64,000 nucleotides of DNA, taken from Streptomyces catenulae (GTDB taxonomy: Bacteria > Actinomycetota > Actinomycetes > Streptomycetales > Streptomycetaceae). Below, piece by piece: positions 19,290-41,152 of this stretch (positions are counted from its first letter, which is position 1; each line of letters begins with the position of its first letter). Location of the stretch: the NCBI RefSeq assembly GCF_000718015.1, contig NZ_JODY01000007.1, positions 1-64,000 of the forward strand, given 5' to 3'. Made by a program: the position numbers and the translations under genes. The notes under the pieces were generated by a model. The model saw nothing but the letters and a program-made list of their open reading frames with translations. It did no database searches and had not been told where the DNA came from.

Positions 19290-19364
19290 GCCCTGGTACC
19301 CCAACCGGTTAGAGGGACGGTGCTCAAACCACCGACAGTGTGGGTTCGAATCCCACCCAGGGCA
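19290..19364 (+). tRNA. Class-I-shaped tRNA, anticodon CAA (Leu codon UUG)
   Basis: A full cloverleaf can be folded by hand. Acceptor GCCCTGG/CCAGGGC is perfect. The D-arm starts CCCC with loop AACCGGTTAG. The anticodon stem CGGTG/CACCG is perfect, with loop CTCAAAC, so positions 34-36 read CAA. The variable loop is only 5 nt (ACAGT). The T-arm is GTGGG TTCGAAT CCCAC, and the discriminator base is A; 3' CCA is not encoded. CAA reads the leucine codon UUG, but bacterial tRNA-Leu normally has a long variable arm, which is missing here. So the gene is real-looking but its amino-acid identity is uncertain. It lies between the ANTAR regulator and pyk. Confidence 0.85.
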
Positions 19365-19619
19365 CTTCGCCTCATTTTCGAAGGCCGGACCTCGCTCGGC
19401 CGATCGGTGATCTTCACCCGTCATGGTGATCGCACCCTCTCGCCCTCTTCTCCGGGCCCCGGCGCTCCCCGCTCCGTATGACCTCCGCGTACGGGCCCCG
19501 TCGCGCGTGACGGCACGCAGAGGGCCGAAGCGCTGACAGGAACGGCAGTCAGAACCTCGGCCCGGCATCAACGCCCGCGCACGGGCGGCTCTTTCCTCCG
19601 GTGGAACTGCGGACTCCCC
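19365..19619. other. Gap between tRNA and pyk
   Basis: 255 bp with no supported gene; the open frames here have no recognisable product. No strong hairpin was seen. Confidence 0.4.
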
Positions 19620-27273: not shown

Positions 27274-27822
27274 ATGGCGCGCAGGTCGGCGGAGCGGTCG
27301 GACGCGGTGGCGGGGATCGTGGAGGACTGGCGGCGGGAGCGGCCGGAGCTGGACACCTCGCCGCTGGAGGTGCTGGCACGGCTGCACCGGACCTTTCTGC
27401 GCTACAGCGCGCGGCTGACGGCGTCGGTGGAGTCGCACGGGCTGTCGGTGGCCGGGTTCGACGTGCTGACCGCGCTGCGGCGGGCGGGCCGTCCCTACCG
27501 GCGGACGGCCGGGCAGTTGGCGGACTCCGGGCTGATCTCGTCGGCGGGGGTGACGCTCCGCATCGACCGGCTGGAGAAGGACGGGCTGATCGTCCGGGAG
27601 CGGGACGCCGAGGACCGGCGGGTGGTGCGGTCGCGGCTGACGGAGGAGGGGCTGGCGCGGATCGACACGCTCTTCGCCGAGCATCTGGAGAACGAGCGGC
27701 GGATGCTGGCCGGGCTCTCCCCCGCCGAGTGCCGTCAGCTGGCGCGGTTGCTGTCGAAGCTGGAGCGGTCGATCACGGAGGCGGACGGGCCCGGGGGCGC
27801 GGAGCGGGGCCCGTCCGCCTGA
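27274..27822 (+). CDS. MarR family transcriptional regulator
   Basis: 182 residues from the ATG at 27274 (GGGAGGGGCGGAG upstream). Winged-helix MarR fold: dimerisation helix LEVLARLHRTFLRYSARLTASVE, then GLSVAGFDVLTALRRAGRPYRRTAGQLADSGLISSAGVTLRIDRLEKDGLIVRERDAEDRRVVRSRLTEEG in pieces typical of the recognition helix and the DxRxxR wing. The N-terminal IVEDWRRERPELDTSPLEVLARL type is common in streptomycetes. A GTG at 27238 is a possible alternative start. It could control pepN, itself, or the aromatic island whose operon ends 1.4 kb away; the sequence does not decide. Confidence 0.9.
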   Translation: MARRSAERSDAVAGIVEDWRRERPELDTSPLEVLARLHRTFLRYSARLTASVESHGLSVAGFDVLTALRRAGRPYRRTAGQLADSGLISSAGVTLRIDRLEKDGLIVRERDAEDRRVVRSRLTEEGLARIDTLFAEHLENERRMLAGLSPAECRQLARLLSKLERSITEADGPGGAERGPSA

Positions 27823-27898: not shown

Positions 27899-29086
27899 TC
27901 AGCCGGGGCGGTGGGCGGGCGGGACCTTGCCGCAGAACTCCGCCTCGATGACGTCGGTGTAGCGGGAGCTGTCCCGGAGCCAGTCGCCGTTGACGTTGAA
28001 CGTCAGTCGGTGGCGTCCGTCCCGGGTGGCGAGCATCCCGGAGAGGGAGCCGTTGGTGCTGCCGGACTTGCCGACGACCTGCACCCCGCAGGAGAGCCGC
28101 GCGAACTCGACGCCGAGACCGTAGCCGATGCCGCCTCCCGCCGGGACCTCGTCGAGCATCTCCGTCAGCTGCGCCCGGGGCAGCAGCCGGCCCGTCAGCA
28201 GGGCGTGCTGGAAGCGGTTGAGGTCACCGGCGGTGGAGATGAGGTCGCCGGACGCGCCGAGCCAGGTCATGTTCTGTTCGGTGGCGTCGTGGCTCTCCGC
28301 GTCGGGGCCCTCCTGGTCGAGGCGGGAGTAGCCGACGGGGTGCGGGTCCGGCATCCGGGGCGAGGTGCCGGGGAACGACGTCCCGGTCAGCTTCAGGGGC
28401 CGCAGGACGCGGCGGGTGACCTCCTCGGCGTACGGGCGGCCGGTCGCCTTCTCGATGACCATCCCGGCGATCACATAGGCGGTGTTCGAGTAGTACGGGT
28501 GCTTCGCCGGGTCGGGCCGGGGCGGGTACTTCAGCGCCGTCGCCACCAACTCCTCGGGGGTGTGGGTGTCGTAGCGGTGCTCGGGGAAGCCGGGGCCGGT
28601 GGTGTCGTGGGCGAAGGCGGGGTCCTCGGTGTGGTTGGCGAGGCCGCTGGTGTGGTTGAGGAGGCTGCGGAGGGTGATGGTGGCGCCGTCGTAGCCGTTG
28701 CCCCGCACCAGCCCGGGCAGCCAGGTCTCGACGGAGTCGTCCAGGCTCAGCTTCCCCTCCGCCTCCAGTTGCAGCAGGACGGTGGCGATGAACGTCTTGG
28801 TGATGCTGGCGCCACGGAAGTGCTCACTGCCGGGGGCGCGTTCCCGGCCGGTCGCGGTGTCGGCGTACCCCGCCGCGGCCGACCAGTCCTGTGTGCCGTC
28901 GCGGACGGTGGCGGCCGCCCCGGGGAGCCCGCTCCGCTCGACGAGGGCGCGCAGGGCGGCGCGGGTCGCGCCGTGGTCGCCGGACGCGGCCGGGGCGGCG
29001 CTCGCCGCCGGGGCGAACGCCACCGCCCCGGCGGCGAGTGCCCAGGCCAGGGCGGCGGAGACGGTGCGGGCGGTCGGTCTCTTCAT
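27899..29086 (-). CDS. Secreted serine hydrolase, class C beta-lactamase/DD-peptidase fold
   Basis: 395 residues. An N-terminal Sec signal peptide (MKRPTARTVSAALAWALAAGAVAFAPAASAAP) is followed by a beta-lactamase-related domain: catalytic SxxK in GASITKTFIATVLLQLE, LLNHTSGLANHT, and the YxN motif in YYSNTAYVIAGMVIEKATG. Such proteins include D-alanyl-D-alanine carboxypeptidases (S. R61 type), esterases and proteins without known substrate. Resistance to beta-lactams cannot be inferred. The C-terminus (EFCGKVPPAHRPG) contains a Cys that could pair with the LSCGVQ Cys. It stands alone, transcribed toward marR. Confidence 0.87.
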   Translation of the reverse strand: MKRPTARTVSAALAWALAAGAVAFAPAASAAPAASGDHGATRAALRALVERSGLPGAAATVRDGTQDWSAAAGYADTATGRERAPGSEHFRGASITKTFIATVLLQLEAEGKLSLDDSVETWLPGLVRGNGYDGATITLRSLLNHTSGLANHTEDPAFAHDTTGPGFPEHRYDTHTPEELVATALKYPPRPDPAKHPYYSNTAYVIAGMVIEKATGRPYAEEVTRRVLRPLKLTGTSFPGTSPRMPDPHPVGYSRLDQEGPDAESHDATEQNMTWLGASGDLISTAGDLNRFQHALLTGRLLPRAQLTEMLDEVPAGGGIGYGLGVEFARLSCGVQVVGKSGSTNGSLSGMLATRDGRHRLTFNVNGDWLRDSSRYTDVIEAEFCGKVPPAHRPG

Positions 29087-29197: not shown

Positions 29198-30241
29198 TCA
29201 GGCGTGCCCGGCGGCGGTCAGCGCGGCCGCCTGCTTCTCGGCCTCGGCGCGGTAGAGGCGGCGGAGCCGGACGACGCCGAGGTCGTGCTGGTAGAGGTTC
29301 TCGGCGGTGTCGGCGTCGTACGGCATCGCCTCCAGCATCACGCGGTCCTGTTCGAGGACGTGCCAGTGGCGTTCCTCGATGAGGGTGCGGTAGAGGAAGC
29401 GCCAGCTGTCGCGCCGCCAGTCGGTGACGTGGCGGTAGCGCCAGAAGAAGACGCCGGTGCGCCGTTCGTCGACGGGGCAGACCATGCCGACGATGCCGAA
29501 GGGGCCGCCGGGACCGGCGGACGGCGGGTAGGGGATGGAGAGGTCGACCCAGTCGACGCCGGTGCGGCACAGTTCGACCCAGTCGAAGTTGACGCCGCGC
29601 TGGTCGGTCTTCTCGAAGAAGTAGCCGCGGTCGGTCTCCCGGATGCGGAACTTCGCGGTGGTGTCGCCCTCCCCCATCGTGTGCGACTCGTGGTGCAGGA
29701 ACTGGCCGTGCATCGGGTCGAGGAGGTTCTCCACCGCGTAGCGCCAGGGGGTCTCCCACTCGGCGTAGCAGAGGAACGCGTCGGTGCCGGGGTCGGTGAG
29801 CGGCTCGGGCAGGGTCAGTTCGCAGGGTTCGGGGTGGAGCGCGTCGCCGAAGTAGGCGAGGACGGCGCCGCCCACCTCGCGGACCGGGGGGCTGGTGACG
29901 AGCTGTTTGCCTTCGAGGGCGCAGCCGGGCAGCCCGGGGACGGAGGTGACGGTGCCGGTGCCGTCGACCTCGACGCCGTGGTACCAGCAGGCGACGCGGT
30001 CGCCGAGGTGGCGGCCGAGGGAGAGCCGGGCGCCGCGGTGCGGGCAGCGGTCGGCGAGCATGTGGAGGCGGCCGTCGGCGCGGCGGAAGAGGAGCCAGTC
30101 CTCGCCGAGGGCCCGGACCCGGCGCATCCCGCCGGGGGCGACGAAGTGGGACGGGACGACGGGGTGCCACTGGTTGCGCAGCCCGGTGGCGTAGAACCGG
30201 TCGGCGAGGGTGCCGGTGGTCGGGGTGGTCGCTGCGGTCAC
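29198..30241 (-). CDS. Rieske non-heme iron oxygenase, alpha subunit
   Basis: 347 residues from the GTG at 30241. The Rieske [2Fe-2S] ligands are C66 and H68 (CPHRGARL) and C85 and H88 (CWYHGVEV). The mononuclear iron ligands are D175, H178 and H183 in ENLLDPMHGQFLHHESH. Length and layout resemble the single-component VanA-type aromatic hydroxylases and O-demethylases rather than the larger alpha subunits that need a beta partner, and no beta subunit is present. The reductase two genes upstream would supply electrons. Last gene of the eleven-gene operon; 3 nt separate it from the small HTH-like gene. The substrate is unknown. Confidence 0.9.
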   Translation of the reverse strand: MTAATTPTTGTLADRFYATGLRNQWHPVVPSHFVAPGGMRRVRALGEDWLLFRRADGRLHMLADRCPHRGARLSLGRHLGDRVACWYHGVEVDGTGTVTSVPGLPGCALEGKQLVTSPPVREVGGAVLAYFGDALHPEPCELTLPEPLTDPGTDAFLCYAEWETPWRYAVENLLDPMHGQFLHHESHTMGEGDTTAKFRIRETDRGYFFEKTDQRGVNFDWVELCRTGVDWVDLSIPYPPSAGPGGPFGIVGMVCPVDERRTGVFFWRYRHVTDWRRDSWRFLYRTLIEERHWHVLEQDRVMLEAMPYDADTAENLYQHDLGVVRLRRLYRAEAEKQAAALTAAGHA

Positions 30242-30244
30242 GGG

Positions 30245-30466
30245 TCACGCTCCCAGTCGGTGCATCTCGGCGCGGAAGGACCGCTCGGTCCAGGGTTCGC
30301 CGTCGGGGGTGTGGACCTGGCGGTCGTTCAGCCCGGCGACGACGTCGGTCAGTTCGTGGCCGACCTCGGTGAAGATCTCTTCGAGGGTGCGGGCGAGCTT
30401 GATCTCGTAGGGGGTCGGTTCGTGGGTACGGGACTGGTGGATGTCCAGGTACGGGCCGGGGTTCAC
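30245..30466 (-). CDS. Small Rieske-associated protein, recombinase-like HTH type
   Basis: 73 residues from the GTG at 30466 with GGAGG just upstream. Sequence features: PYLDIHQSRTHEPTPYEIKL, then ELTDVVAGLNDRQVHTPDGEPW and TERSFRAEMHRLGA. It resembles small proteins annotated as recombinase-like helix-turn-helix that I recall being encoded beside Rieske oxygenases. The helix pattern resembles the DNA-binding end of serine recombinases, but its position inside the operon between oxygenase and reductase suggests a partner or assembly role. Function unknown. It is too short to have been found by length alone. Confidence 0.7.
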   Translation of the reverse strand: MNPGPYLDIHQSRTHEPTPYEIKLARTLEEIFTEVGHELTDVVAGLNDRQVHTPDGEPWTERSFRAEMHRLGA

Positions 30467-30489
30467 GGTGCCTCCGGGGGTTCGGGGTG

Positions 30490-31461
30490 TCACAGGTCGA
30501 GGACGAGGCGGTCGCCCGCGCAGCGCGAGACGCAGATCATCAGGGAGGTCCCGGCGGCCCGTTCGGCGTCGCTGAGCAGGAAGTCGCGGTGGTCGGGGGT
30601 GCCGTCCAGGACGCGGGTCTCGCAGGTGCCGCAGATGCCGTCGCGGCAGGAGCTGGGGACGTCGATGCCCGCGCCCTCGACGGCGTCGAGGATGGAGGTG
30701 CCGTCCGCGACCCGGACGGTGCGGCCGCTGCGGCGGCACTCGACGTCGAAGCCGTGGCCGTCGGCGGGTGCCGGGGCGCCGTCGGGCGGGGCGGGGGCGG
30801 CGAACCGTTCGGTGTGCAGCCGGTCGGTGAGGCCGAGGGCGGCGCAGCGTTCCTCGACGGCGGCGAGGAGCGGTTCGGGGCCGCAGCAGTAGACGAGGGT
30901 GCCGTCCGGCAGTCCGGTCAGGGCGGCGTCGAGGTCGAGGTGGCCGTGGACGTCCTGGGGGCGCAGGTCGCAGTGGCCGGTGACGCCGTCGGCGAGGGCG
31001 GTGAGCGCGTCGGTGAAGGCGAGGCTGGTGCGGCGGCGCCCGCCGTAGAGCAGCTGCCAGGGGGTGCCGGTGCGGTGGGCGTGGCGGACCATCGGGAGCA
31101 GCGGGGTGATGCCGATGCCACCGGCGACGAAGAGGTAGCGGGCGGCCGGTTCGAGGGCGAAGTGGTTGCGGGGGCCCTGGACGCGGACGGCTGAGCCGGG
31201 GCGCAGCACGGTGTGGACGTGGGCGGAGCCGCCGCGGGAGTCGGGGGTGTGCAGGACGGCGACGCGGTAGCGGGTGGTGTCGTCCGGGTCGCCGCAGAGC
31301 GAGTACTGGCGGATCCGGCCGCCGGTGTGCAGATCGAGGTGGGCGCCGGGCTCCCAGGGCGGCAGCGGCTTGCCGTCGGGGTGGACGAGGTCCAGCGAGA
31401 GGACGTCGTCGGCCTCCCGGGTCATCCGGTGGACGAGCAGGTCGAAGGGGGTGTCGGACAC
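30490..31461 (-). CDS. PDR/VanB-type ferredoxin reductase
   Basis: 323 residues from the GTG at 31461 (GGAGG 6 nt upstream). Phthalate dioxygenase reductase family: flavin-binding RQYSLCG near residue 51, NAD(P)H-binding FVAGGIGITPLLPM near residue 111, CCGPEPLL near 192, and a C-terminal plant-type [2Fe-2S] domain with C272, C277, C280 and C310 (SCRDGICGTC and MICVSRC). It would pass electrons from NAD(P)H to the Rieske oxygenase encoded two genes downstream. The VanA/VanB-like pairing suggests O-demethylation or ring hydroxylation of an aromatic acid. Confidence 0.92.
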   Translation of the reverse strand: MSDTPFDLLVHRMTREADDVLSLDLVHPDGKPLPPWEPGAHLDLHTGGRIRQYSLCGDPDDTTRYRVAVLHTPDSRGGSAHVHTVLRPGSAVRVQGPRNHFALEPAARYLFVAGGIGITPLLPMVRHAHRTGTPWQLLYGGRRRTSLAFTDALTALADGVTGHCDLRPQDVHGHLDLDAALTGLPDGTLVYCCGPEPLLAAVEERCAALGLTDRLHTERFAAPAPPDGAPAPADGHGFDVECRRSGRTVRVADGTSILDAVEGAGIDVPSSCRDGICGTCETRVLDGTPDHRDFLLSDAERAAGTSLMICVSRCAGDRLVLDL

Positions 31462-31472
31462 GGTCGTCCTCC

Positions 31473-33119
31473 TTACCGGGCGGGCAGTGCGACGGGCGGG
31501 GTGAACGGGGTCTTCATCGGGCCGAGTGCGGTGAGATCGACCTCGACGAGGGTGGGGCCGTCGCTCGCGGTGGCGGCGGTCAGGACGGGCGCGGCGTCGT
31601 CCTCGGCGGCTATCCGGGCGTAGGGCAGGCCGGTGGCGTGGGCGAGGGCGGCGAAGTCGGGGGTGGCGAGGTCGACGCCGGAGCGGCGGTCGAAGTAGCG
31701 GTCCTGCATGTTGCGGAGCACGCCGTAGCCGCCGTCGTTGAAGACGACGAGGGTCAGGCGGGGGCGTTCCTGGGCGAGGGTGAGGAGTTCGCCGAGGTGG
31801 ACGGCGAGGCCGCCGTCGCCCGCCATGACGAGGGTGGGGGTGTCGGGGGTGGCGAGGGCGGCGCCGATGCCCATGCCGAGGCCCTGGCCGATGCCGCCGC
31901 CGCGCGGGAAGACGTTGGTGTGCGGGTGGTGGATCGTAAGGAGGCGGTTGCCCCAGCTGCTGGCGGGGACGGTGACGTCGCGGGCGAGGACGGCTTCGGG
32001 CGGCAGGGCGGCGCGGATCGCGTCGCAGAGCGCGGCCTGCGGGCCGATGCGGTCGCGGAGTTCGGCGCGGACGGCCTCGCGGGCCTCGCGGATGCGGGCG
32101 GCCCAGGCGGGGTCGGGGCCTGCGGCGGGCCGGGCGGTGAGGCGGTCGTGGAGGGCGGTGAGGGCGGTGGCGGCGTCGCCGTGCAGCGGGTGGGTGGCCG
32201 GGTAGGAGCGGCCGAGGGCGGCCGGGTCGTGGTCGATCTGGAGATGGACGGCGGGGAGTTCCAGGCTCCAATCGGCGGTCTCGTTGGAGCGGAAGTGGCT
32301 GCCGACGGTGAGCAGCAGATCGGCTTCGGCGAGGAGGGCGCGGCCGGTGGGGGTGGTGGCGAAGTTGCCGACGCAGCGGTCGTCGGTCTCGGGGACGGCG
32401 CCGCGGCCGGAGTTGGAGGTGAGCAGTCCGGCGCCGGTCTTGTCGAGGAGGGCGGTGAGTTCCGGTCCGGCGGTGGTGGCGCCGCCGCCCGCCCAGACGA
32501 GGGGGCGGCGGGCGGCGGCCAGGGCGCCTGCGGCGGCGTCGAGCGCGTCGGCGGCGGGCCGGACGGGCTCCGGTGCCGGGCGGGCGGCGGGCAGGTCGGC
32601 CGGGTCCTGGGGCGCGTACTGGAGGTCGATGGGCCACTCGACGCTGGCGGGGCCGCCGGTCGGGCCGCAGAGGTGGTCGGCGGCGTCGCGCAGGACCCGA
32701 CCGGCGCCCGCGGCGTCGGGGACGGTCGCGGCATGGGCGCTGACGGCGCGGAGCATGCCGAGTTGGTCGCGGGTCTCGTGGATGTAGCCGCGTCCGGCGC
32801 CGAGGTGGTGGCTGTCGATCTGGCCGGTGACGTGGAGCACGCGGCTGCCGGTGGCCAGCGATTCGATCAGGGAACCCGCGGCGTTGCCCGCGCCGGTGCC
32901 CGTGCTGGTGAGGGCGCAGCCGACGCCGCCGCGGGCGCGGCCGTGGCCGTCGGCGGCGTTGACGGCGGTGGCCTCGTGGCGGACGGGCACGAAGCGCAGA
33001 TCGCGGTCGACGGCCTCGACGAGCGGCAGGTTGTGCACGCTGACGACGCCGAAGACGGTGTCGACGCCGAGGTCGCGCAGGAGGGCGACGAGCAGATCGC
33101 CGCCGTGGGGCTGGGACAT
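31473..33119 (-). CDS. Thiamine-diphosphate enzyme, acetolactate synthase/decarboxylase type
   Basis: 548 residues from MSQPHGGDLLVALLRDLGVDTVFG. Three-domain ThDP fold: the PYR domain with catalytic-type Glu E49 in FVPVRHEATAVNAADG, central domain GGATTAGPELTALLDKTGAGLL, and the PP domain with the ThDP-binding motif GDGG...NDGGYG (LVMAGDGGLAVHLGE, VVFNDGGYGVLRNM). The sequence is acetolactate-synthase-like, but the genomic context suggests a 2-oxoacid decarboxylase or carboligase acting on a ring-cleavage product. The regulatory subunit ilvH is not nearby, which argues against amino-acid synthesis. ATG at 33119 with GGGAG upstream. Confidence 0.88.
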   Translation of the reverse strand: MSQPHGGDLLVALLRDLGVDTVFGVVSVHNLPLVEAVDRDLRFVPVRHEATAVNAADGHGRARGGVGCALTSTGTGAGNAAGSLIESLATGSRVLHVTGQIDSHHLGAGRGYIHETRDQLGMLRAVSAHAATVPDAAGAGRVLRDAADHLCGPTGGPASVEWPIDLQYAPQDPADLPAARPAPEPVRPAADALDAAAGALAAARRPLVWAGGGATTAGPELTALLDKTGAGLLTSNSGRGAVPETDDRCVGNFATTPTGRALLAEADLLLTVGSHFRSNETADWSLELPAVHLQIDHDPAALGRSYPATHPLHGDAATALTALHDRLTARPAAGPDPAWAARIREAREAVRAELRDRIGPQAALCDAIRAALPPEAVLARDVTVPASSWGNRLLTIHHPHTNVFPRGGGIGQGLGMGIGAALATPDTPTLVMAGDGGLAVHLGELLTLAQERPRLTLVVFNDGGYGVLRNMQDRYFDRRSGVDLATPDFAALAHATGLPYARIAAEDDAAPVLTAATASDGPTLVEVDLTALGPMKTPFTPPVALPAR

Positions 33120-33145
33120 GGTGCGGTCTCCCGGAGGGGTGCGGG

Positions 33146-33934
33146 TCAGGCGGCGGAGCGGGCGACGCCGCCGCAGACGTCGAGGGCGGTGCCGGTGATG
33201 TACGAGGCGCGGGGCGCGAGGAGGGTGAGGACGGCGTAGGCGACCTCGTCGGCGCGGCCGAGGCGGCCGAGGGCGACGCCGCGGTCGGCGGCCAGTTCGG
33301 CCTGCCAGGTGTCGTAGCTCTGCGGGGTGCCGGAGGCGGCGTGGCGGCGGGTCCACTGGCCGGTGTCGATGAGACCGAGGCAGACGGAGTTGACGCGGAT
33401 GCCGTCGGGGGCCAGTTCGCGGGCGAGGGAGGCGGAGAGGTTGAGGATTCCGGCGCGGGCGGCGCTGGTGGTGATCAGCCGGGGTGAGGGTTCCTTGGCG
33501 AGGACGGCGTTGACGTTGACGACGGCCGCGGCGTCGGAGGCGCAAAGGTGCGGGAGGGCGGGGCGCAGGGTGTGCAGCACGCCCGCGAACTTCAGCTCCA
33601 GCTCGTCGCGCCAGTCCTCGGCGGTGGTCTCGGCGAAGCGCTTCATCCGGGACTGTCCGGCGTTGTTGACGAGGCCGTCGAGGCCGCCGAAGTGGTCGGC
33701 GGCGCGGTGGACGAAGGCGGCGGTGGCGTCGGCGTCGCGGATGTCGGCGGCGCCGGTGAGCAGCCGGTCCGGTCCGGCGCCGAGGGCGTCGGCGAGGGCG
33801 GTCAGCGGTTCCGGGGTGCGGGCGCAGGTGGCGACGCGGGCGCCCTCGTCGAGCAGGGCGCGGACCGTGGCCAGGCCGACGCCGGAGGTGCCGCCGGTGA
33901 CGAGTACGGTGCGGTCGGCGAGGCCGAGGTCCAT
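33146..33934 (-). CDS. Short-chain dehydrogenase with altered catalytic triad
   Basis: 262 residues of the SDR fold: nucleotide motif TVLVTGGTSGVGLATV (TGxxxGxG) and LVNNAGQSRMKRF are intact. In place of the catalytic Ser-Tyr-x-x-x-Lys it reads VNVNAVLAKEPS then LITTSAARAGILNL: Thr156 sits at the Tyr position, Arg160 at the Lys position and Ala143 at the Ser position. I recall a family of aromatic-cluster SDR proteins (the PRK07062 type) with the same ATSAARAG motif, so this is probably a subfamily trait and not decay. It may use another residue or not act as a classical dehydrogenase. Inside the aromatic operon. Confidence 0.87.
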   Translation of the reverse strand: MDLGLADRTVLVTGGTSGVGLATVRALLDEGARVATCARTPEPLTALADALGAGPDRLLTGAADIRDADATAAFVHRAADHFGGLDGLVNNAGQSRMKRFAETTAEDWRDELELKFAGVLHTLRPALPHLCASDAAAVVNVNAVLAKEPSPRLITTSAARAGILNLSASLARELAPDGIRVNSVCLGLIDTGQWTRRHAASGTPQSYDTWQAELAADRGVALGRLGRADEVAYAVLTLLAPRASYITGTALDVCGGVARSAA

Positions 33935-33962
33935 GGGGGTCCTTTCGGGGTCACGGATACCG

Positions 33963-33989
33963 CAACCCCCTTGTTACGCAAGGGAGTTG
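33963..33989 (-). promoter_or_regulatory. Hairpin between the two SDR genes
   Basis: Inverted repeat CAACCCCCTTG / CAAGGGAGTTG (one mismatch) with loop TTACG, in a 65-bp gap that is less GC-rich than the surroundings. It could be an internal attenuator, an RNA-processing site or a partial terminator within the operon. Confidence 0.5.
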
Positions 33990-33999
33990 GACGGGTTCG

Positions 34000-34752
34000 T
34001 CAGTGCATGGTGAAGCCGCCGTTGACGGCGATGACCTGGCCGGTGAGGTAGCGGGACTCCTCGCCGAGGAGGAAGGCCACCAGGCCGATGAGGTCGTCGG
34101 GGCGTTGCGGGCGGGAGACGGCGCGGCCCAGCCGGTAGAGCTCATGGCGTTCGGCGGGGACGTTCTCGGTCGCCTCGCAGGCGGTGAGGCCGGGGGCGAC
34201 GGCGTTCACGGTGACGCCCCGGTCGCCCAGTTCGCGGGCCATCGCCCGGGTGAGGGCGATGACGGCGCCCTTGGAGGCGATGTAGTGGGCGAGGCGCGGG
34301 GAGCCGTAGAGGGCGGCGTCGGAGGCGAGGTTGACGATGCGTCCGGTGCCGTGCGCCAGGAGCTGCGGGAGCAGCGCGCGGGCGACGAGCCAGGGGCCGC
34401 GGGCGTTGACCGTCATCAGCCGGTCCCACTCCTCGACGGTGAGCTCCCAGAACTCCTTGCCGCCGACGCCGTTGGCCAGCCCGGCGTTGTTGACCAGGCC
34501 GTACAGCGGGCCGAGGGCGGCGGTGGCGGCGGCGAGGGCGGCGACCGAGGCGGGGTCGGCGACGTCGCAGCGGACGAAGTGGGCGTCGAGACCGTCGGCG
34601 CGGAGGGCGGCGGCGGTGGCGGTGCCGCGCTCGGCGTCGAGTTCGGCGACGACGACGCGGTGGCCGTCCTCGGCCGCCCGGCGGGCCATGGCCTCCCCCA
34701 GGCCACGGCCGGCGCCGGTGACGACGACGGTGCCGGTTGCGGGGGCGGCCAT
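34000..34752 (-). CDS. Short-chain dehydrogenase/reductase
   Basis: 250 residues, classical SDR: TVVVTGAGRGLGEAMARR (TGxxxGxG), GLVNNAGLANG, catalytic Ser in RIVNLASDAALYG and Tyr-Lys in LAHYIASKGAVIALTRAMA, C-terminal YLTGQVIAVNGGF. It would oxidise or reduce a hydroxy or keto intermediate with NAD(P)H. Its start codon shares one base with the cupin stop (TGATG). Unlike its downstream neighbour it keeps the full catalytic set, so the operon has one normal and one altered SDR. Confidence 0.9.
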   Translation of the reverse strand: MAAPATGTVVVTGAGRGLGEAMARRAAEDGHRVVVAELDAERGTATAAALRADGLDAHFVRCDVADPASVAALAAATAALGPLYGLVNNAGLANGVGGKEFWELTVEEWDRLMTVNARGPWLVARALLPQLLAHGTGRIVNLASDAALYGSPRLAHYIASKGAVIALTRAMARELGDRGVTVNAVAPGLTACEATENVPAERHELYRLGRAVSRPQRPDDLIGLVAFLLGEESRYLTGQVIAVNGGFTMH

Positions 34753-35273
34753 CAGTCGCGGGTGACGCCGTGCATCGGCGAGTGCGCGGGGTAGGTGGGG
34801 ACCTGCGGCTTCCGCGTGCCGATGACGACGCAGAACAGTGCGTCGGTGGCGCCCTCGTTCTTGAGGCTGCGGGCCACCCCGGCGGGCACGACGATCATGT
34901 CGCGGTAGCCGAGGGTGCGGTACTCGGCCTCGCCGTCGCCGCGGTGGATGCCGACGCGGACCTCGCCCTCCAGGACGAAGAACGCCTCCTCGACGTCGTG
35001 GTGGGTGTGCTCGGGGCCCTCGGCGCCGGGCGGCAGCAGCATGTTGGAGAAGGTGAAGCCGCCGGACGGCAGGATGCGGTTGTCGCCGTCGTGGTCGCCG
35101 GTGGCGCCGGAGCCGACGTAGCGGATCTGGGCGCGGCGGTACTGGTCACCGGCCTTGGTCTGGAAGGCGAGGGTGTCCCAGTCGGGCTCGCGGGAGTCCT
35201 TGGTGGCGATCAGGGAGTCGGTGTACGCGGCGAGGTCGCCGCCGTTGTCGTAGGCGTCGGTGGTGAGGGGCAT
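34752..35273 (-). CDS. Cupin-domain protein
   Basis: 173 residues with one cupin barrel. Motif 1 is PPGAEGPEHTHHDVEEAFFVLEG split over residues 81-102, with likely metal ligands H89, H91 and E95; motif 2 is YRDMIVVPAGVARSLKNEG. The cupin may bind iron, zinc or manganese and could be a small dioxygenase, isomerase or hydrolase-like enzyme of the pathway, or a sensor. The N-terminal 60 residues (AYDNGGDLAAYTDSLIATKD) are specific to this group. Encoded immediately upstream of, and coupled to, the classical SDR. Confidence 0.87.
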   Translation of the reverse strand: MPLTTDAYDNGGDLAAYTDSLIATKDSREPDWDTLAFQTKAGDQYRRAQIRYVGSGATGDHDGDNRILPSGGFTFSNMLLPPGAEGPEHTHHDVEEAFFVLEGEVRVGIHRGDGEAEYRTLGYRDMIVVPAGVARSLKNEGATDALFCVVIGTRKPQVPTYPAHSPMHGVTRD

Positions 35274-35307
35274 GGTGCAACTGCCTTCCGTGGTGCGGGT
35301 GGGGTGA

Positions 35308-36102
35308 TCAGTCGCCGAGACCGGCGGTGATACGGAGGTGGGAGAGGAGCCAGGCGTCGAACGCCTCGGGCCGCTCCTGGTTGGCGAGGTGACCGGCGTC
35401 CTTGACGATCACGTACGCGGACCGGGGCAGCGCACCGGCCAGGAGCTGGCTCGCCCCGGGGCCGGTGACGCGGTCGAGGTCGCCGCTCAGGACGAGGGCG
35501 GGCGCGGTGATGCCGGGCAGTTCGCCGCGCAGGTCGGTGGCGGCCATCGCCTCGGCGGCGTATCCGTAGCCCGGCAGCCGGACGGCGCGGGCCATGGTGT
35601 CGGTGACCCGGCGGACGAGGGCCTCGGGCGCCGCGTCGGAGACCAGGCGGGGGCCGCGGCGGGCGGCGAAGGCGCGCGGGCCGAGGTCGGCGAGTTCGGC
35701 GGCGCGGGCGCGCATCCCGGCGGCCTTCGCCGGGTCGGTGCCGGAGCCCGCGCTGGACGAGGCGACGATCAGCGAGGCGACGAGGGCGGGGTGGCGGGCG
35801 GCGAGGCGGAGGGCGATGACGCCGCCCCAGGAGACGCCGAGGACGTGGACCGGGCCGCCGTGCTCCCGGATCAGGGCGGCGGCGGTGTCGGCGTAGCCGT
35901 CCAGGTCGAGCGGGGCTTCGGGGTCGGTGGAGGCGCCGTAGCCGGGGGCGTCCCAGGCGAGCAGGTGGAGCCGGTCGCCGAGGGTCGCGAACTGCGGGGC
36001 GAAGGCGGCGGAGGAGGAGCCGATGCCGTGCAGGCAGAGCACCGTCGGCCCGGTGCCGCCGCTCTCCGTCACCTGGAGTCCGGCGAGGTCGTGGGCGGTC
36101 AC
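35308..36102 (-). CDS. Alpha/beta hydrolase, ring-cleavage product hydrolase-like
   Basis: 264 residues from the GTG at 36102, which overlaps the preceding stop by 4 nt (GTGA). The alpha/beta hydrolase triad is visible: nucleophile S91 in LGVSWGGV, Asp in LVLSGDLDRVTG and His in VKDAGHLANQE; oxyanion region LCLHGIGSSS. In an operon with an extradiol dioxygenase it is a natural candidate for C-C hydrolysis of a meta-cleavage product (BphD/MhpC type), though an ester- or lactone-hydrolase is possible. Confidence 0.88.
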   Translation of the reverse strand: MTAHDLAGLQVTESGGTGPTVLCLHGIGSSSAAFAPQFATLGDRLHLLAWDAPGYGASTDPEAPLDLDGYADTAAALIREHGGPVHVLGVSWGGVIALRLAARHPALVASLIVASSSAGSGTDPAKAAGMRARAAELADLGPRAFAARRGPRLVSDAAPEALVRRVTDTMARAVRLPGYGYAAEAMAATDLRGELPGITAPALVLSGDLDRVTGPGASQLLAGALPRSAYVIVKDAGHLANQERPEAFDAWLLSHLRITAGLGD

Positions 36103-36935
36103 AGGATCATTCCGGGGCGTCCGGCGAGGGCGGCGAGGGAGCGCAGTACCGCGTAGGGCACGACCTGGCTGGTGGCCGGGGTGTCCGCGTCGGGCAGATG
36201 GCGGACCTCGAAGCGGTAGCTGCCGTGACCGCCGGACGCCTCGACGACATGGCGGGTGTGGCGGGCCGCGGGGTCGGCGACGACGCTGACCCGTACCGCG
36301 TCCGGGTCGCCGACGGCGAGGGCGACGGAGGCGGCGACGTTGGTGGAGCGGGGGAACTTCGCGGGGATCTCGCGGGCGGAGCCGCGCAGCACCTCGACGG
36401 GCCCGGTGGCGGTCCGCATCCGGTGCAGCAACTCCTCGTCCATCCAGGGCTGTTCGAGGGTGGCGGGGAGCTTGGTGGTGGTGAGGGTGACCTCGGTGAG
36501 CGGGCCGAGGGCGCGGGCCGCCTGGAGGAGGTCGAGGCCGCCGACGGCGCCGCCGGTGAAGTAGACGCGGCCGGGTCCGGCGGCGCGCAGCCGGGCGGTG
36601 AGGGCGTCGTCGGTGAGCGCGCCGGTGGAGGCGATCAGCAGGTCGGCCCCGGCGGTGAGGATCTCCTCGCCGTGGGCGCGGACCACGCCCTGGCCCGCGG
36701 CCTCGACGATCAGATCGCAGGAGGTCAGCGCGGATTCCAGGGGGAGTTGCGGGGCGGGGGCGGCGTCGCCGAGCGGACGGTTGTCGACGACGCAGGTCAG
36801 CTCGGCGCCGGGGACCTCACCGGCGGCCAGCGCGGTGCCGACGACGCGTCCGATGGCGCCCCAGCCGATGAGGCCGACCCGGCGCGGGGCGCGGGTGGCG
36901 GGCGGCGTGGCGGGGGCGGCGGATACGGCGGTCAT
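36099..36935 (-). CDS. L-aspartate dehydrogenase-like protein (NadX/DUF108)
   Basis: 278 residues from the ATG at 36935. N-terminal Rossmann motif GLIGWGAIGRVVG at 21-33; mid-region AREIPAKFPRSTNVAASVALAVG corresponds to the conserved FPxNxNVAA stretch of aspartate dehydrogenases; ARHTRHVVEASGGHGSYRF follows. The family deaminates L-aspartate to oxaloacetate or iminoaspartate with NAD(P). NAD synthesis genes are not adjacent, so in this operon it more likely handles an amino or imino intermediate, or recycles oxaloacetate; that is inference. It overlaps both neighbours by 4 nt, showing tight translational coupling. Confidence 0.87.
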   Translation of the reverse strand: MTAVSAAPATPPATRAPRRVGLIGWGAIGRVVGTALAAGEVPGAELTCVVDNRPLGDAAPAPQLPLESALTSCDLIVEAAGQGVVRAHGEEILTAGADLLIASTGALTDDALTARLRAAGPGRVYFTGGAVGGLDLLQAARALGPLTEVTLTTTKLPATLEQPWMDEELLHRMRTATGPVEVLRGSAREIPAKFPRSTNVAASVALAVGDPDAVRVSVVADPAARHTRHVVEASGGHGSYRFEVRHLPDADTPATSQVVPYAVLRSLAALAGRPGMIL

Positions 36936-37858
36936 GCGGTTCCTTCCGGGGCGGCGAGCGGGCCGGGGTCGGGGGTACCGGCCATGTGGCGGCGGATGGC
37001 GGGGGACGGCGGCCCGGCGGTGCCCCACAGGTCGGAGAGTTCGGGGGTGCGGCGCCAGACCCGGGCGATCCAGGCGTCCTCGACGATCTGCGCGACCTCG
37101 GAGGTGTACTCGCAGACCAGTCCGGACGGGTCGGTGAAGTAGGCGAAGGTGTTGTCGCCCGGCCCGTGCCGCCCGGGTCCCCACTGCGGGGTGATGCCGT
37201 GGTGGCGCAGCCGTCCGAGGCCGCGCATGAAGTGGTCGACCGAGGTCATCTCGTACGCGACGTGGTTGAGGGAGGCCCAGTCGGCCTGGTTGAAGGCGAG
37301 GCAGTGGTGGTCGGCGTTGCAGCGCAGGAAGGCCATCTGGTGCTCGGACCAGTCGGAGACCCGCAGGCCGAGGACGTCGGTGTAGAAGGCGACGGCGGCG
37401 TCGATGTCGGTGGTGTTGAGGACGGTGTGGGTGACGCCGACGGGGACGGCGGCGTCCCGTCCGCGCGGGGCGACGGCCTCGACGTGGGCGCTCAGCTCCA
37501 GCAGCCGCCCCTCGGGGTCGGTGAAGCGCAGACCGTAGCCGCCGCCGAACTGGTCGAGCGGGCCGGGTCCGTGGACGGGGACGATGCCGCGGGCGGCGAG
37601 GCGGCGGGCGGCGGTGTCGACCTCGGCGGGGCCGGCGAGGGCGAAGCTGATCTTTCCGAGGGCGGGCCGGTCGGCGTGGGTGAGGGAGAGGACGTGGTGC
37701 TCGGGGCCGGTGCCGCGCAGCCAGGCGGCGCCGGTCTCGGCCCCGACGGTCTCCAGGCCCCACACCTCGCGGTAGAAGTCGGTGGCCTCGGTGACGGCGG
37801 GGGTGCGGAGTTCGACGGCGCGCAGGGCGCGGAGCCGGGCTACGGGCTCGTGGGGCAT
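36932..37858 (-). CDS. Extradiol ring-cleavage dioxygenase (VOC, type I)
   Basis: 308 residues with two vicinal-oxygen-chelate domains, each with paired beta-alpha-beta-beta-beta units. Fe(II) ligands typical of type I extradiol dioxygenases are in the second domain: H144 (GVTHTVLN), H199 (LNHVAYEM) and E250 (LVCEYTSEV); the second-shell His is in NADHHCLAF. Size and C-terminal tail fit the homoprotocatechuate / catechol 2,3-dioxygenase group. It would cleave a catechol next to its hydroxyls (meta cleavage). Start ATG at 37858; its stop overlaps the NadX-like start (ATGA). Confidence 0.92.
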   Translation of the reverse strand: MPHEPVARLRALRAVELRTPAVTEATDFYREVWGLETVGAETGAAWLRGTGPEHHVLSLTHADRPALGKISFALAGPAEVDTAARRLAARGIVPVHGPGPLDQFGGGYGLRFTDPEGRLLELSAHVEAVAPRGRDAAVPVGVTHTVLNTTDIDAAVAFYTDVLGLRVSDWSEHQMAFLRCNADHHCLAFNQADWASLNHVAYEMTSVDHFMRGLGRLRHHGITPQWGPGRHGPGDNTFAYFTDPSGLVCEYTSEVAQIVEDAWIARVWRRTPELSDLWGTAGPPSPAIRRHMAGTPDPGPLAAPEGTA

Positions 37859-37920
37859 CGGTTCGGCATCCTTCGGACGGGGGCGGGGGGACGGACGGCG
37901 CGCGGCGGGTACGGCGGGGG

Positions 37921-39444
37921 TCAGGAGGCGGCCCAGGGCAGCGGGCCGCCGGTGCCCCAGTAGAGGCTCTGCTGCCGCTGGTAGGCGCGGATGCCGTCGC
38001 GGCCCTTCTCCCGGCCCAGCCCGCTCTCCTTCATCCCGCCGAACGGGGTGGCCGCGCTGAACTGCTTGTAGGTGTTGATCCACACGGTGGCGGCGTCGAT
38101 CCGGTCGGCGACCCGCCAGGCGGTGGCCGCGTCGCGGGTCCACAGTCCGCAGGCGAGGCCGTAGACCGTGTCGTTGGCCTGGGCGACGAGGTCGTCCTCG
38201 TCGTCGAAGGGCAGCGCGACGAGGACCGGTCCGAAGATCTCCTCCCGGCAGACCCGGGCGGTGGGCGGCAGCCCGTCGAGGATCGTGGGGAGGTAGTAGG
38301 CGCCGTCGCGGAAGCGCGCGCCCTCGGGTGCGGCGCCGCCGCAGCGGACCCGGGCGCCCTCCTCGCGAGCCAGATCGACGTAGGCGGCGACGTGGTCGCG
38401 GTGGCGGTGGTGGACGAGCGGGCCGACCTGGGTCGCGGGGTCGGTGCCGGGGCCGACGCGCAGGGCGCGGGTCCGGGCGGTCAGTTCGTCGAGGAAGGCG
38501 TCGTAGCGGGCGCGGTGGACGAAGAGGCGGGATCCGGCGATGCAGCTCTGGCCGCTGGAGGAGAAGATCCCGAACAAGACCCCGGCCAGGGCGGTTTCGG
38601 TGTCCGCGTCGTCGAGGACGACCGTCGGTGACTTGCCGCCCAGTTCCAGCGAGACCGGCATGATCTTGTCGGCGGCGATCCGGCCGATGGCGCGTCCGGT
38701 GTGGGTGCCGCCGGTGAACGCGACCTTCCCGACGGCCGGGTGGCGCACGAGCGCGTCGCCGGTGACGGTGCCGGGCCCGGGCAGCACCGCGAGCAGCGCG
38801 GGCGGCAGCCCCTCCGCGGCCAGGGCGTGGTGCACGATCCGGCCGAGGGCCAGGGCGACGAGCGGGGTCCACTCGGCGGGCTTGAGCAGCACGGCGTTCC
38901 CGGCGGCGAGGGCGGGCGCGAGTTTCTGGGCGTCGCTGGCTATCGGGGAGTTCCAGGGGGTGATGGCGGCGACGACGCCGATCGGGGTGTGGCGGCTGAG
39001 GGTGACGTAGTCGCCGCGGGAGGGGGTGACGGCGTCCTCGGCGGTCTCCACGGCGGCGGCGACGTACCGGAAGGTGGCGGCGGCGCTGCGTACCAGGGCG
39101 AGGGTCTCGGCGCGGGTCTTGCCGGTGTCGGCGGTCTGGAGTGCGGAGAGCGCGTCGGCGTGGGTGTCGACGAGCGCGGCGACGCGGTGCAGCAGCCGGG
39201 CGCGCAGATGCGGCGGCAGGCGGCGCCAGGCCGGGTCGGCGGCGGCGCGGGCGGCGGCGGTGGCCGCGGCGTCGACGTCGGCGGTGCCCGCGCCGGTCAC
39301 GGTGGTCAGGGTGCGGCCGGTCGCCGGGTCGACGGTGGTGATCGGGGCGCCGGTGCCGCGCCGCCACTCCCCCGCGACCAGGATCTCGTCGGGGGTGGCG
39401 CCCGGCGCGGGCACCAGGTCGTCCACCGGTGCGTCGACGGTCAT
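37921..39444 (-). CDS. Aldehyde dehydrogenase
   Basis: 507 residues from the ATG at 39444 (AGGAGG 7 nt upstream). Class III/IX-type aldehyde dehydrogenase: N165 in ITPWNSP, K188 in LLKPAEW, GGTHTGRAIG nucleotide loop, E267 in PVSLELGGKSP and catalytic C301 in SSSGQSCIAGSR. Oxidises an aldehyde to an acid with NAD(P). First gene of the aromatic operon; in meta-cleavage pathways such enzymes oxidise semialdehyde ring-fission products. The frame extends upstream over the promoter, so the shorter start is preferred. Confidence 0.92.
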   Translation of the reverse strand: MTVDAPVDDLVPAPGATPDEILVAGEWRRGTGAPITTVDPATGRTLTTVTGAGTADVDAAATAAARAAADPAWRRLPPHLRARLLHRVAALVDTHADALSALQTADTGKTRAETLALVRSAAATFRYVAAAVETAEDAVTPSRGDYVTLSRHTPIGVVAAITPWNSPIASDAQKLAPALAAGNAVLLKPAEWTPLVALALGRIVHHALAAEGLPPALLAVLPGPGTVTGDALVRHPAVGKVAFTGGTHTGRAIGRIAADKIMPVSLELGGKSPTVVLDDADTETALAGVLFGIFSSSGQSCIAGSRLFVHRARYDAFLDELTARTRALRVGPGTDPATQVGPLVHHRHRDHVAAYVDLAREEGARVRCGGAAPEGARFRDGAYYLPTILDGLPPTARVCREEIFGPVLVALPFDDEDDLVAQANDTVYGLACGLWTRDAATAWRVADRIDAATVWINTYKQFSAATPFGGMKESGLGREKGRDGIRAYQRQQSLYWGTGGPLPWAAS

Positions 39445-39505
39445 CCGGGGCCTCCTGGGCGGGAGTTGGGCGGGGGTGTGCCGAGCGGATTGCTTCAGCG
39501 CCAGA

Positions 39506-39534
39506 AATCTAAGCACTTAACTATTTCCTGGCAA
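39506..39534 (-). promoter_or_regulatory. Promoter of the aromatic catabolic operon
   Basis: Minus strand TTGCCA (39534-39529), a 17-nt spacer and TAGATT (39511-39506). Spacing is optimal for HrdB. The palindrome TAAGTGCTTA (same strand reading) runs into the -10 box, so a bound protein would block RNA polymerase. Confidence 0.7.
39510..39519. promoter_or_regulatory. Operator copy 1, TAAGCACTTA
   Basis: Near-perfect palindrome (only the central two bases break symmetry) overlapping the -10 box of the catabolic operon; matches operator copy 2 in 9 of 10 positions. Likely bound by a MarR-, IclR- or GntR-type repressor. Confidence 0.65.
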
Positions 39535-39570
39535 CCCCCGTCGGCCGGAAAACTTTCCCGGTCCAACCCC

Positions 39571-39601
39571 TTGACGACCCCGCCCCTGCGGTCGGTAGAA
39601 C
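39571..39601 (+). promoter_or_regulatory. Promoter of the MFS transporter
   Basis: TTGACG (39571-39576), a 19-nt spacer and TAGAAC (39596-39601). The spacer is slightly long; operator copy 2 begins 1 bp after the -10 box, over the expected transcription start. Confidence 0.55.
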
Positions 39602-39602
39602 T

Positions 39603-39612
39603 TAAGCGCTTA
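39603..39612. promoter_or_regulatory. Operator copy 2, TAAGCGCTTA
   Basis: Perfect 10-bp palindrome at the predicted transcription start of the MFS gene, nearly identical to operator copy 1 located 93 bp away. A half-site GCGCTTA follows at 39621-39627. Confidence 0.65.
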
Positions 39613-39733
39613 GAAGCTTTGCGCTTACGGACGGGACATCTCGCGGACTCCCCAACCGCCGCCCCGCCGCGCCTCGCCCTCCCCCCTGCCCTGCCCCTCT
39701 CCCGCCCCGCCGCGGGCCTGGAGGAATCCCCGG

Positions 39734-41152
39734 ATGAGCCTTGCCGCCTCCCCGGACCGCGAGACCGGCGCCGCCCGCGCCGCGCTCGCCGCCCGGTTCG
39801 AACGACTCCCGCTGTCCCGCTGGCACGTCACCGTCCGCGTCGTCATCGGCGTCGTGACCTTCTTCGAAGCCTTCGACCAACTGCTGATCGCCTACGCGAT
39901 GCCCGAACTCCGCCAGGAATGGGCGCTGTCCACCGGCGGCGCCACCCTGGTGATGACCGTCGGCTCGGTCGGCATGCTCCTCGGCGCGCTGCTCTCCGGC
40001 CGCCTCGCCGACCGGCACGGCCGGGTCACCGTCATCGCCGCCTGCATCGGCCTGTCGGGACTGGCCTCCGCCGCCCTCGCGGCCACGAACGGCCCCGGCT
40101 CCTTCATGGCGCTCCGCTTCGTCCAGGGCCTGGCCATCGGCGGGGAGGTGCCGGTCGCCGCCACCTTCATCAGCGAGATCACCCGCAGCCTGGGCCGCGG
40201 CCGCTTCGTCCTCCTCTACGAACTGGTCTTCCCCGCCGGGCTCACCGTCGGCGCGCTGGCCGCCGCCTGGATCGTCCCGGCTCTCGGCTGGCGCTGGATG
40301 TATCTGCTCGCCGCGCTCCCCGGACTGCTGGCGCTGCTGGTGCGCCGCACCGTCCCCGAGTCCCCGCGCTGGCTCGCCGACCGCGGGCGGCTGCCGGAGG
40401 CGGAGGCGACCATGGCGCTGATCGAGCGGAAGGTCGAGGCGGCGACGGGCCGCCCGCTGCCCCCGGTCACCGGCCCCGCCCCGGCGCCCGCGGGCGACGG
40501 CCCGGTCGTGCCCGCCACCCCCGCCGAACGCGCCGCCACCGGCGTCCGGGGCCTGTTCACCGGCCGCTACCGCCGCCGCACCCTCGTCCTCGCCGCCCTC
40601 TGGTTCACCGGGTACTTCGTCAACTACGGCATCACGTCCTGGCTGCCGAGCATCTACGGCAGCCGCTTCCACCTCTCGCTCGGCGACGCGCTGCTCGCCT
40701 CGACAGTCACCTCCGTCGCCGGACTGATCGGCTGTCTGGTCGCCGCGCTCACCGTGGACCGGATCGGCCGCCGCCGGATCTTCCCGCTCTTCCTCGGCGG
40801 CACCGCGGCCACCCTGCTCGTCCTCGCCCTGACCGGCGCCGGATCCACCGGCGGCGTCCTGCTGTGGACCTCACTCGCCGCGGTCTGCTTCTTCGGCTCC
40901 AACATCTGCCTGTACCTCTACACCCCGGAGCTGTACCCGACCCGGATGCGGGCGCTGGGCTGCGCCGCGGGCGGTGCGGTCAACCGGCTGGGGGTGATCG
41001 GCGGGCCCGTCGTCGTCGGCGCGGTGTACGCCGCGTCCGGACTGCCCGCGGTGTTCGCGGTGCTCGCCGCGGTCGCCGCCGCCGGTGCGCTGGCCGCCGC
41101 CCTCTTCGCCGAGGAGACCCGCGACCGGCCGCTGGAGGAGGTCTCCCCCTGA
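39734..41152 (+). CDS. MFS transporter, aromatic acid:H+ symporter-like
   Basis: 472 residues with about 12 membrane helices. Motif A of the major facilitator superfamily is seen between helices 2 and 3 (SGRLADRHGRVTVIA); the R/E-rich motif LRFVQGLAIGGEVPVAATFISEI and the central loop with RRTVPESPRWLADRGR place it in the sugar/aromatic-acid symporter group (PcaK/BenK-like). It is divergent from the catabolic operon and shares its operators, so it probably imports the substrate. ATG at 39734 with GGAGGAATCC upstream. Its 3' end is overlapped in antisense by the AraC gene frame. Confidence 0.9.
   Translation: MSLAASPDRETGAARAALAARFERLPLSRWHVTVRVVIGVVTFFEAFDQLLIAYAMPELRQEWALSTGGATLVMTVGSVGMLLGALLSGRLADRHGRVTVIAACIGLSGLASAALAATNGPGSFMALRFVQGLAIGGEVPVAATFISEITRSLGRGRFVLLYELVFPAGLTVGALAAAWIVPALGWRWMYLLAALPGLLALLVRRTVPESPRWLADRGRLPEAEATMALIERKVEAATGRPLPPVTGPAPAPAGDGPVVPATPAERAATGVRGLFTGRYRRRTLVLAALWFTGYFVNYGITSWLPSIYGSRFHLSLGDALLASTVTSVAGLIGCLVAALTVDRIGRRRIFPLFLGGTAATLLVLALTGAGSTGGVLLWTSLAAVCFFGSNICLYLYTPELYPTRMRALGCAAGGAVNRLGVIGGPVVVGAVYAASGLPAVFAVLAAVAAAGALAAALFAEETRDRPLEEVSP

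Follow-up and report, generated by a model that had tools for sequence, protein, structure and literature searches.

A conserved Streptomyces operon possibly serving the aerobic use of a quinoline-2-carboxylate-type acid

Which compound is degraded by a gene cluster that combines ring dihydroxylation and meta-cleavage enzymes with proteins foreign to the classical aromatic routes? This question is raised by an operon of eleven minus-strand genes and a divergent transporter gene, located at positions 29198 to 41152 of a 64,000-nucleotide stretch of Streptomyces catenulae DNA (contig NZ_JODY01000007.1, positions 1 to 64,000; hereafter the window). The genome comprises 7.05 Mb in 90 contigs, with the operon on contig C7. 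We suggest, with a probability of roughly 0.45, that the cluster is an inducible operon through which a fused N-heteroaromatic acid is used aerobically, one that belongs to the quinoline-2-carboxylate class and is most likely kynurenate. At the level of class, the substrate is probably an N-heteroaromatic acid; kynurenate (4-hydroxyquinoline-2-carboxylate) itself, taken as a single compound, is doubtful. Kynurenic acid is a breakdown product of tryptophan. If it is the substrate, soil, plant and human-body bacteria would have a defined genetic route for destroying a neuroactive tryptophan product, and sequences would be assigned to orphan enzymes. New in this analysis are a paired palindrome at the divergent promoter, an operon-linked molybdenum hydroxylase, and RidA-type genes at loci that lack one of the operon families.

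Gene content and the predicted route

All twelve genes carry the families given in a first-pass annotation of this DNA, according to Pfam and NCBIfam matches, and chance open reading frames are ruled out, since distant genomes have retained these genes. This content supports its description of an operon for aromatic degradation that covers uptake, ring activation and meta-cleavage and follows no classical route. A Rieske-type dioxygenase, a diol dehydrogenase of the short-chain dehydrogenase/reductase (SDR) family and an extradiol enzyme are encoded together, in roles that we infer. The Rieske oxygenase alpha subunit (29198–30241, minus strand; PF00355, 66 bits, and PF19112) has no adjoining beta subunit gene and is 46–51% identical to five proteobacterial relatives. 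Its residues D175, H178 and H183, which we read as the DxxHxxxxH iron motif, are invariant in a six-row alignment, as in Rieske non-heme oxygenases, and its best match in the PDB is carbazole dioxygenase (80 bits). Electrons would be supplied by a phthalate dioxygenase reductase (PDR)/VanB-type protein with NAD-binding and [2Fe-2S] domains (30490–31461, minus strand; PF00111, PF00175). The first SDR (34000–34752, minus strand; PF13561/PF00106) is a proposed cis-dihydrodiol dehydrogenase, and in the loci of Klebsiella, Caballeronia NK8 pNK83, Acinetobacter and Pseudosulfitobacter an SDR gene comes directly after the Rieske gene. The extradiol dioxygenase (36932–37858, minus strand; PF00903 in two stretches; PDB 3b59, 210 bits) has the vicinal oxygen chelate (VOC) fold of type I enzymes, and H144, H199 and E250, presumably its 2-His-1-carboxylate iron ligands, are invariant in a seven-row alignment, as expected of that type. 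It scores under the equivalog cut-offs for catechol 2,3-dioxygenase (TIGR03211, 110 against 320 bits) and HpaD (94.5 against 321 bits).

The first gene of the operon encodes an aldehyde dehydrogenase (ALDH; 37921–39444, minus strand; PF00171, 533 bits), which reaches 454, 453 and 398 bits with the NCBIfam models BADH, HpaE and OH_muco_semi_DH, each below its own cut-off. The second SDR (33146–33934, minus strand) and a full-length, 548-residue thiamine diphosphate (ThDP)-dependent enzyme, a proposed 2-oxoacid decarboxylase (31473–33119, minus strand), pass the curated cut-offs of PRK07062 (322 bits, cut-off 266) and PRK07064 (679 bits, cut-off 495), whose descriptions give neither substrate nor reaction. 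The aspartate dehydrogenase (AspDH)-like oxidoreductase (36099–36935, minus strand; PF01958 and PF03447) is related in sequence to the solved L-aspartate dehydrogenases 2dc1 and 1j5p (about 91 bits each) and falls under all eight NCBIfam aspartate dehydrogenase cut-offs listed (for example 141.3 against 177, 140.9 against 184, and 139.5 against 206.55); we propose that it may act on an imine or amino acid intermediate. Also encoded are a PcaD-like alpha/beta hydrolase (35308–36102, minus strand; PF12697/PF00561), which scores 144.7 bits with PcaDC against a cut-off of 390, and a single-domain cupin (34752–35273, minus strand; PF07883). In the alignment the cupin retains HxH and Glu, with Arg in place of what we take to be the third His of the usual motif. 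Its structure model (predicted local distance difference test score 84) matches varied cupin folds, and neither this model nor that of the HTH_62 protein yielded a functional lead.

In most homologous loci, the Rieske gene has as its neighbor the gene of the HTH_62 protein (30245–30466, minus strand; 73 residues; PF20552, 106 bits), which is predicted to form three helices, a model without a PDB match at E ≤ 0.001. Such proteins accompany this Rieske gene across phyla and are annotated as recombinase-like helix-turn-helix proteins; they may be accessory proteins of the oxygenase and not DNA binders. The divergent major facilitator superfamily (MFS) transporter (39734–41152, plus strand; TIGR00895, 212 bits, below the cut-off of 418.55) is nearest to the aromatic-acid/H+ symport family. 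As for the layout, overlaps of 4, 4 and 1 nt do occur, but at only 3 of the 10 operon junctions, the other 7 being spaced by 3–65 nt, so that the earlier remark on many overlapping genes was overstated.

Based on these assignments, a route can be proposed in which each catalytic step is a prediction from protein family. The MFS protein would import the acid, whereupon a MarR repressor would leave the promoter palindromes. Where a molybdenum hydroxylase is present, it may convert a precursor such as quinaldate to kynurenate. The Rieske oxygenase and PDR reductase would dihydroxylate the carbocycle to a 7,8-dihydrodiol, which the first SDR would rearomatise to a catechol, and extradiol cleavage of the catechol ring would leave a dihydroxypicolinate bearing an unsaturated 2-oxoacid side chain. 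This side chain may be trimmed to a carboxylate by the second SDR, the ThDP enzyme (through decarboxylation) and the ALDH, while the hydrolase and cupin would open or trim the pyridone ring to the enamine or imine of a 2-amino-4-oxoacid. Finally, the AspDH-like protein would reduce the imine, or RidA would hydrolyse it in strains without AspDH, and nitrogen would exit as an amino acid or ammonia.

The quinoline pathway of kynurenate breakdown in pseudomonads proceeds through dihydroxylation, diol dehydrogenation, extradiol cleavage, and side-chain decarboxylation and oxidation, with amino acids as products. To our knowledge, biochemical descriptions of its enzymes date from the 1960s and came without sequences. 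The likeness of the operon to this pathway lies in predicted chemistry only, and we found no paper tying genes to it. It is conceivable, if rather doubtful, that the operon represents the missing genes of this branch, extended by an optional molybdenum hydroxylase for quinaldate and a NicC-like monooxygenase for xanthurenate, and carried from Streptomyces to Klebsiella and Acinetobacter. We found no described pathway with the same combination of enzymes. The gene set was absent from the open-access literature searched by title and beginning of abstract, a search that left subscription journals mostly outside its scope; kynurenic acid together with Rieske returned nothing relevant there, and for exact pathway phrases the match in PMC11354673 was a reference title only. 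According to the available part of that paper, pseudomonads form glutamate and alanine from kynurenate (PMC11354673), which would fit the proposed route because a 2-amino-4-oxo intermediate would allow both.

Two characterized systems are similar in part. In the lumichrome (riboflavin) catabolism of Nocardioides simplex, the lum genes likewise encode a molybdenum hydroxylase, then a Rieske dioxygenase, then an extradiol enzyme acting on a fused N-heteroaromatic, together with a ThDP decarboxylase and the cupin LumY (PMC12746152). However, as far as the accessible text of that report goes, the lum pathway uses a two-subunit Rieske enzyme and a two-protein ThDP enzyme (20 and 23 kDa), whereas the window encodes a single alpha subunit and one 548-residue ThDP enzyme; in addition, a P450 and hydrolases act first, the xanthine oxidase is single-chain, and an AspDH-like or HTH_62 gene is not mentioned in that text (PMC12746152). 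On this subunit make-up we ruled out the operon as a member of the lum pathway. The iad auxin-degradation operon of Variovorax also directs a Rieske system and reductase at an N-heteroaromatic acid (PMC10374108, PMC12633357). Its Rieske enzyme consists of two proteins (IadD/IadE), its route runs through a coenzyme A (CoA)-bound intermediate and a thiolase to anthranilate, and extradiol, ThDP and AspDH-like genes go unmentioned in the available portions of both papers (PMC10374108, PMC12633357). With a single Rieske gene, and with neither a CoA nor a thiolase gene among its twelve, the window cluster was rejected as an iad operon on the same partial texts.

Conservation and nitrogen-handling genes

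A profile scan of genome contigs with a Rieske alignment confirmed at least 572 relatives. The best 80 loci were kept, each with an actinobacterial title. Comparison of the 12 window proteins with these and earlier loci by tblastn revealed one recurring gene block. Gene families were counted over 93 loci (7 + 80 + 6; L098–L103 were unscored). Of the scored loci, 68 offer no less than 7.5 kb of sequence ahead of the Rieske gene and 4 kb beyond it; because the loci had been retrieved by means of this gene, its presence in the counts is true by construction. All eleven families occur in 47 of the 68 loci, ten in 16, nine in 3, and four or fewer in 2, meaning that at least ten of the eleven are present in 63, and AspDH is the family most often missing (16 loci). 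The gene set, which the first-pass annotation proposed to look for in other genomes, is not unique. Its description of the island as undescribed-looking holds for function, for which the literature searched offered no description; the gene content is widespread and not unusual.

In Streptomyces, the Rieske gene was found at E ≤ 1e-120 in 32 of 246 sampled genomes, including this one, and the distribution of the operon is patchy. Most of the set is also present in annotated plasmid-collection records of Klebsiella pneumoniae, Caballeronia, Novosphingobium, Acinetobacter baumannii and Pseudosulfitobacter (a Roseobacter relative), and a Vibrio record holds a version in which no Rieske gene is listed. 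In the position of the Streptomyces PDR gene, the Klebsiella, Caballeronia NK8 and Acinetobacter records list a ferredoxin and an FAD-dependent oxidoreductase, with IclR genes nearby. A conserved operon with this spread, Klebsiella and Acinetobacter included, is without a substrate assignment in the literature searched. Two candidate loci were discarded: Variovorax L013 has the ThDP gene in common with the cluster but lacks the operon itself, and Massilia L110 looked unrelated in its annotation.

Three sets of accompanying genes bear on the nature of the substrate. RidA proteins hydrolyse imines and enamines. A RidA-type gene (counted at E ≤ 1e-8 and at least 38% identity) is found in 14 of the 16 loci without AspDH and in 6 of the 52 loci with it, so that one or the other is present in 66 of the 68. 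Given the activity of RidA, reduction by AspDH and hydrolysis by RidA could share one imine. Furthermore, a flavin adenine dinucleotide (FAD) monooxygenase was matched in 14 of 103 loci searched (that of L066 at only 29–33% identity), and for the single copy compared with the PDB the nearest match was NicC, the 6-hydroxynicotinate 3-monooxygenase.

The third set is a molybdenum hydroxylase. Its FAD subunit, with that of L157 as query, was found at E ≤ 1e-85 in 10 of the 246 Streptomyces genomes, and the Rieske gene is present in 9 of these 10 as compared with 23 of the remaining 236 genomes (Fisher p 3e-8, in a test that treats genomes as independent, which they are not). Hydroxylase and operon lie about 14 kb apart on one contig in 6 of the 9 co-occurring genomes, on different contigs in the other three. 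The six are arranged alike, in the order operon, palindrome (one or two), MFS gene, MarR-like stretch, the FAD, FeS and Mo subunit genes, and CoxG; in L174, an 81%-identical MarR gene follows CoxG. The Mo large subunit has its best PDB matches in 6-hydroxypseudooxynicotine dehydrogenase (468 bits) and quinoline 2-oxidoreductase (449 bits). Taken together, the hydroxylase, RidA and NicC-like clues argue for an N-heteroaromatic acid that would undergo Rieske dihydroxylation and extradiol cleavage. The earlier suggestion of a methoxylated or N-containing aromatic is accordingly retained in its N-containing half. Its methoxylated half is disfavored, because the SDR beside the oxygenase and the extradiol enzyme would fit ring dihydroxylation better than O-demethylation.

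Promoter palindromes and the choice of substrate

The first-pass annotation missed a conserved MarR-family gene near the operon (27274–27822, plus strand; PF12802) and a paired palindrome, TTAAGNNCTTAG, in the divergent ALDH/MFS promoter. The two copies, both proposed operators, lie 93 bp apart (TTAAGTGCTTAG, 39509–39520, minus strand; TTAAGCGCTTAG, 39602–39613, plus strand), and with one mismatch allowed they are the only two in the window, where 0.06 would be expected. In 80 homologous loci (1.51 Mb, selected for carrying the operon), all 50 exact copies fall in the interval from 800 bp upstream to 60 bp downstream of the point where the ALDH match starts, and a reversed control pattern has none. 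Among loci with an ALDH of more than 66% identity and enough upstream sequence, 37 of 41 carry the palindrome, 13 of them twice, 92–116 bp apart. The MarR gene was matched in 57 of the 103 loci searched, and this co-occurrence suggests that MarR is the likely reader of the palindrome. Promoter palindromes and MarR offer a direct, substrate-free entry to the pathway, as the compound that releases the regulator is the inducer.

Palindromes are also found near some hydroxylase genes. The hydroxylase stretch of L156 contains XdhC, CoxG, a transporter 52% identical to the window MFS protein, a MarR protein 77% identical to that of the window, and two palindromes 69 bp apart; in L157, a palindrome lies about 50 bp before the FAD-subunit gene. 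Control of operon and hydroxylase through one palindrome would be a weaker possibility, and in these two genomes only. Between the transporter and XdhC genes of L156 lies a gene for a 431-residue TetR and MarR fusion (L156:10972-12264), and MarR-like matches occur at the equivalent place in L171–L176.

Several observations weigh against a kynurenate-type substrate or against the links drawn above. No gene in the annotated neighborhoods examined is named for tryptophan or kynurenine breakdown. The tryptophan dioxygenase gene of this genome is on contig C17 and not beside the operon on C7 (no other kynurenine gene was sought by sequence), and such a gene was found in 13 of 24 cluster genomes searched. 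Linkage of this kind would be helpful, but it is not strictly required if the acid is imported. The AspDH/RidA split tracks phylogeny (Streptomyces versus other actinobacteria), which weakens that clue, NicC has benzenoid relatives, and carbon monoxide (CO) dehydrogenase, at 443 bits, scores nearly as high as the other relatives of the Mo large subunit. This genome has no such FAD subunit at E ≤ 1e-85, and within 1.5 kb of the 10 FAD-subunit genes not even a loose match to the palindrome was found. No non-Streptomyces locus searched contains an exact palindrome. Across this whole genome, 3 palindrome copies compare with 3 matches of the reversed control, and across 26 further cluster genomes 36 copies compare with 39 (15 of the 39 in one Nocardia). 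Single palindromes away from the operon may accordingly be chance, and these counts, together with the lack of palindromes near the 10 FAD-subunit copies, weaken the operator link. It is the placement of the palindrome that is remarkable, its number being unremarkable: 31 of the 36 copies are at the operon, 27 by direct ALDH and MFS match and four by lying 92–115 bp from such a copy, and 2 of the 26 genomes have none.

The same evidence must be weighed for other substrates. A different N-heteroaromatic (a pyridine carboxylate, or an oxoquinoline, isoquinoline or indole derivative) processed along the same lines would equally account for the hydroxylase, RidA and NicC-like clues, and carbazole dioxygenase and 2-oxoquinoline 8-monooxygenase are both among the PDB matches of the Rieske protein. 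On chemical grounds, however, a monocyclic pyridine would leave the dihydrodiol dehydrogenase, catechol cleavage, and ThDP and ALDH steps superfluous, and a transporter nearest to the aromatic-acid family favors a carboxylate; we consider this explanation rather unlikely. That the substrate is a nitrogen-free aromatic acid degraded by meta-cleavage is unlikely too. The AspDH-like and ThDP enzymes would then perform unfamiliar chemistry on cleavage products, and the hydroxylase would be a separate co-travelling module, as could be argued from its solved CO and aldehyde relatives and from the absence of a nearby palindrome at all 10 sampled copies. The extradiol enzyme and ALDH do resemble catechol and homoprotocatechuate enzymes. 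Nonetheless, the near-constant presence of AspDH or RidA would be unexpected, and by Pfam and NCBIfam none of the twelve window genes codes for a hydratase or aldolase (other loci were not specifically searched).

Removal of an O- or N-methyl group by a VanAB-like pair, with subsequent cleavage of the catechol ring so formed, is highly improbable. A PDR-type reductase is present and the VanA_C domain of the Rieske protein reaches 37 bits over a cut-off of 23.5, but no vanillate demethylase model is among its NCBIfam matches, the best being methylsterol monooxygenase (51 bits, cut-off 600). Moreover, the SDR gene beside the Rieske gene and the proteobacterial ferredoxin/reductase variant fit ring dihydroxylation.

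Neighboring genes and minor observations

The five off-operon palindromes among the 36 comprise one in L157, two in L156, one in L155 and one in L154; the last, with unrelated-looking genes nearby, was dismissed as probably chance. The third copy in this genome lies about 50 bp upstream of a gene for a metallo-beta-lactamase-fold protein on contig C9 (L116:7220-8398), the start of which looks secreted by eye. The L155 copy lies at a 74%-identical orthologue of this protein, beside a TauD-family gene. Greater weight is due to the palindrome pair of L156 and to the metallo-beta-lactamase gene, at which two genomes have a copy, and it is possible that the protein encoded by this gene acts on the substrate outside the cell.

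Between the Rieske and MarR genes lies a serine hydrolase gene (27899–29086, minus strand; PF00144), which among the loci searched was matched in L001, L014 and L097 only. As L001 and L097 are this genome and L014 is a near relative, the protein is probably outside the pathway. A second Rieske/ThDP/VOC set is found on Caballeronia NK8 pNK84 (L100:14116-22563) beside a different molybdenum hydroxylase (29% identity). The database proteins P0156 (Rieske and SDR) and P0180 (HTH_62 and Rieske) are fusions and were set aside, as they look like probable deletion or frameshift products. A second cluster type (L103, L077–L093), with its own RidA gene, is marked by a conserved 110-residue protein (L103:6742-7074) that was matched in 16 of the 103 loci. 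The sole tRNA found in the window is a tRNA-Leu (caa) at 19290–19365.

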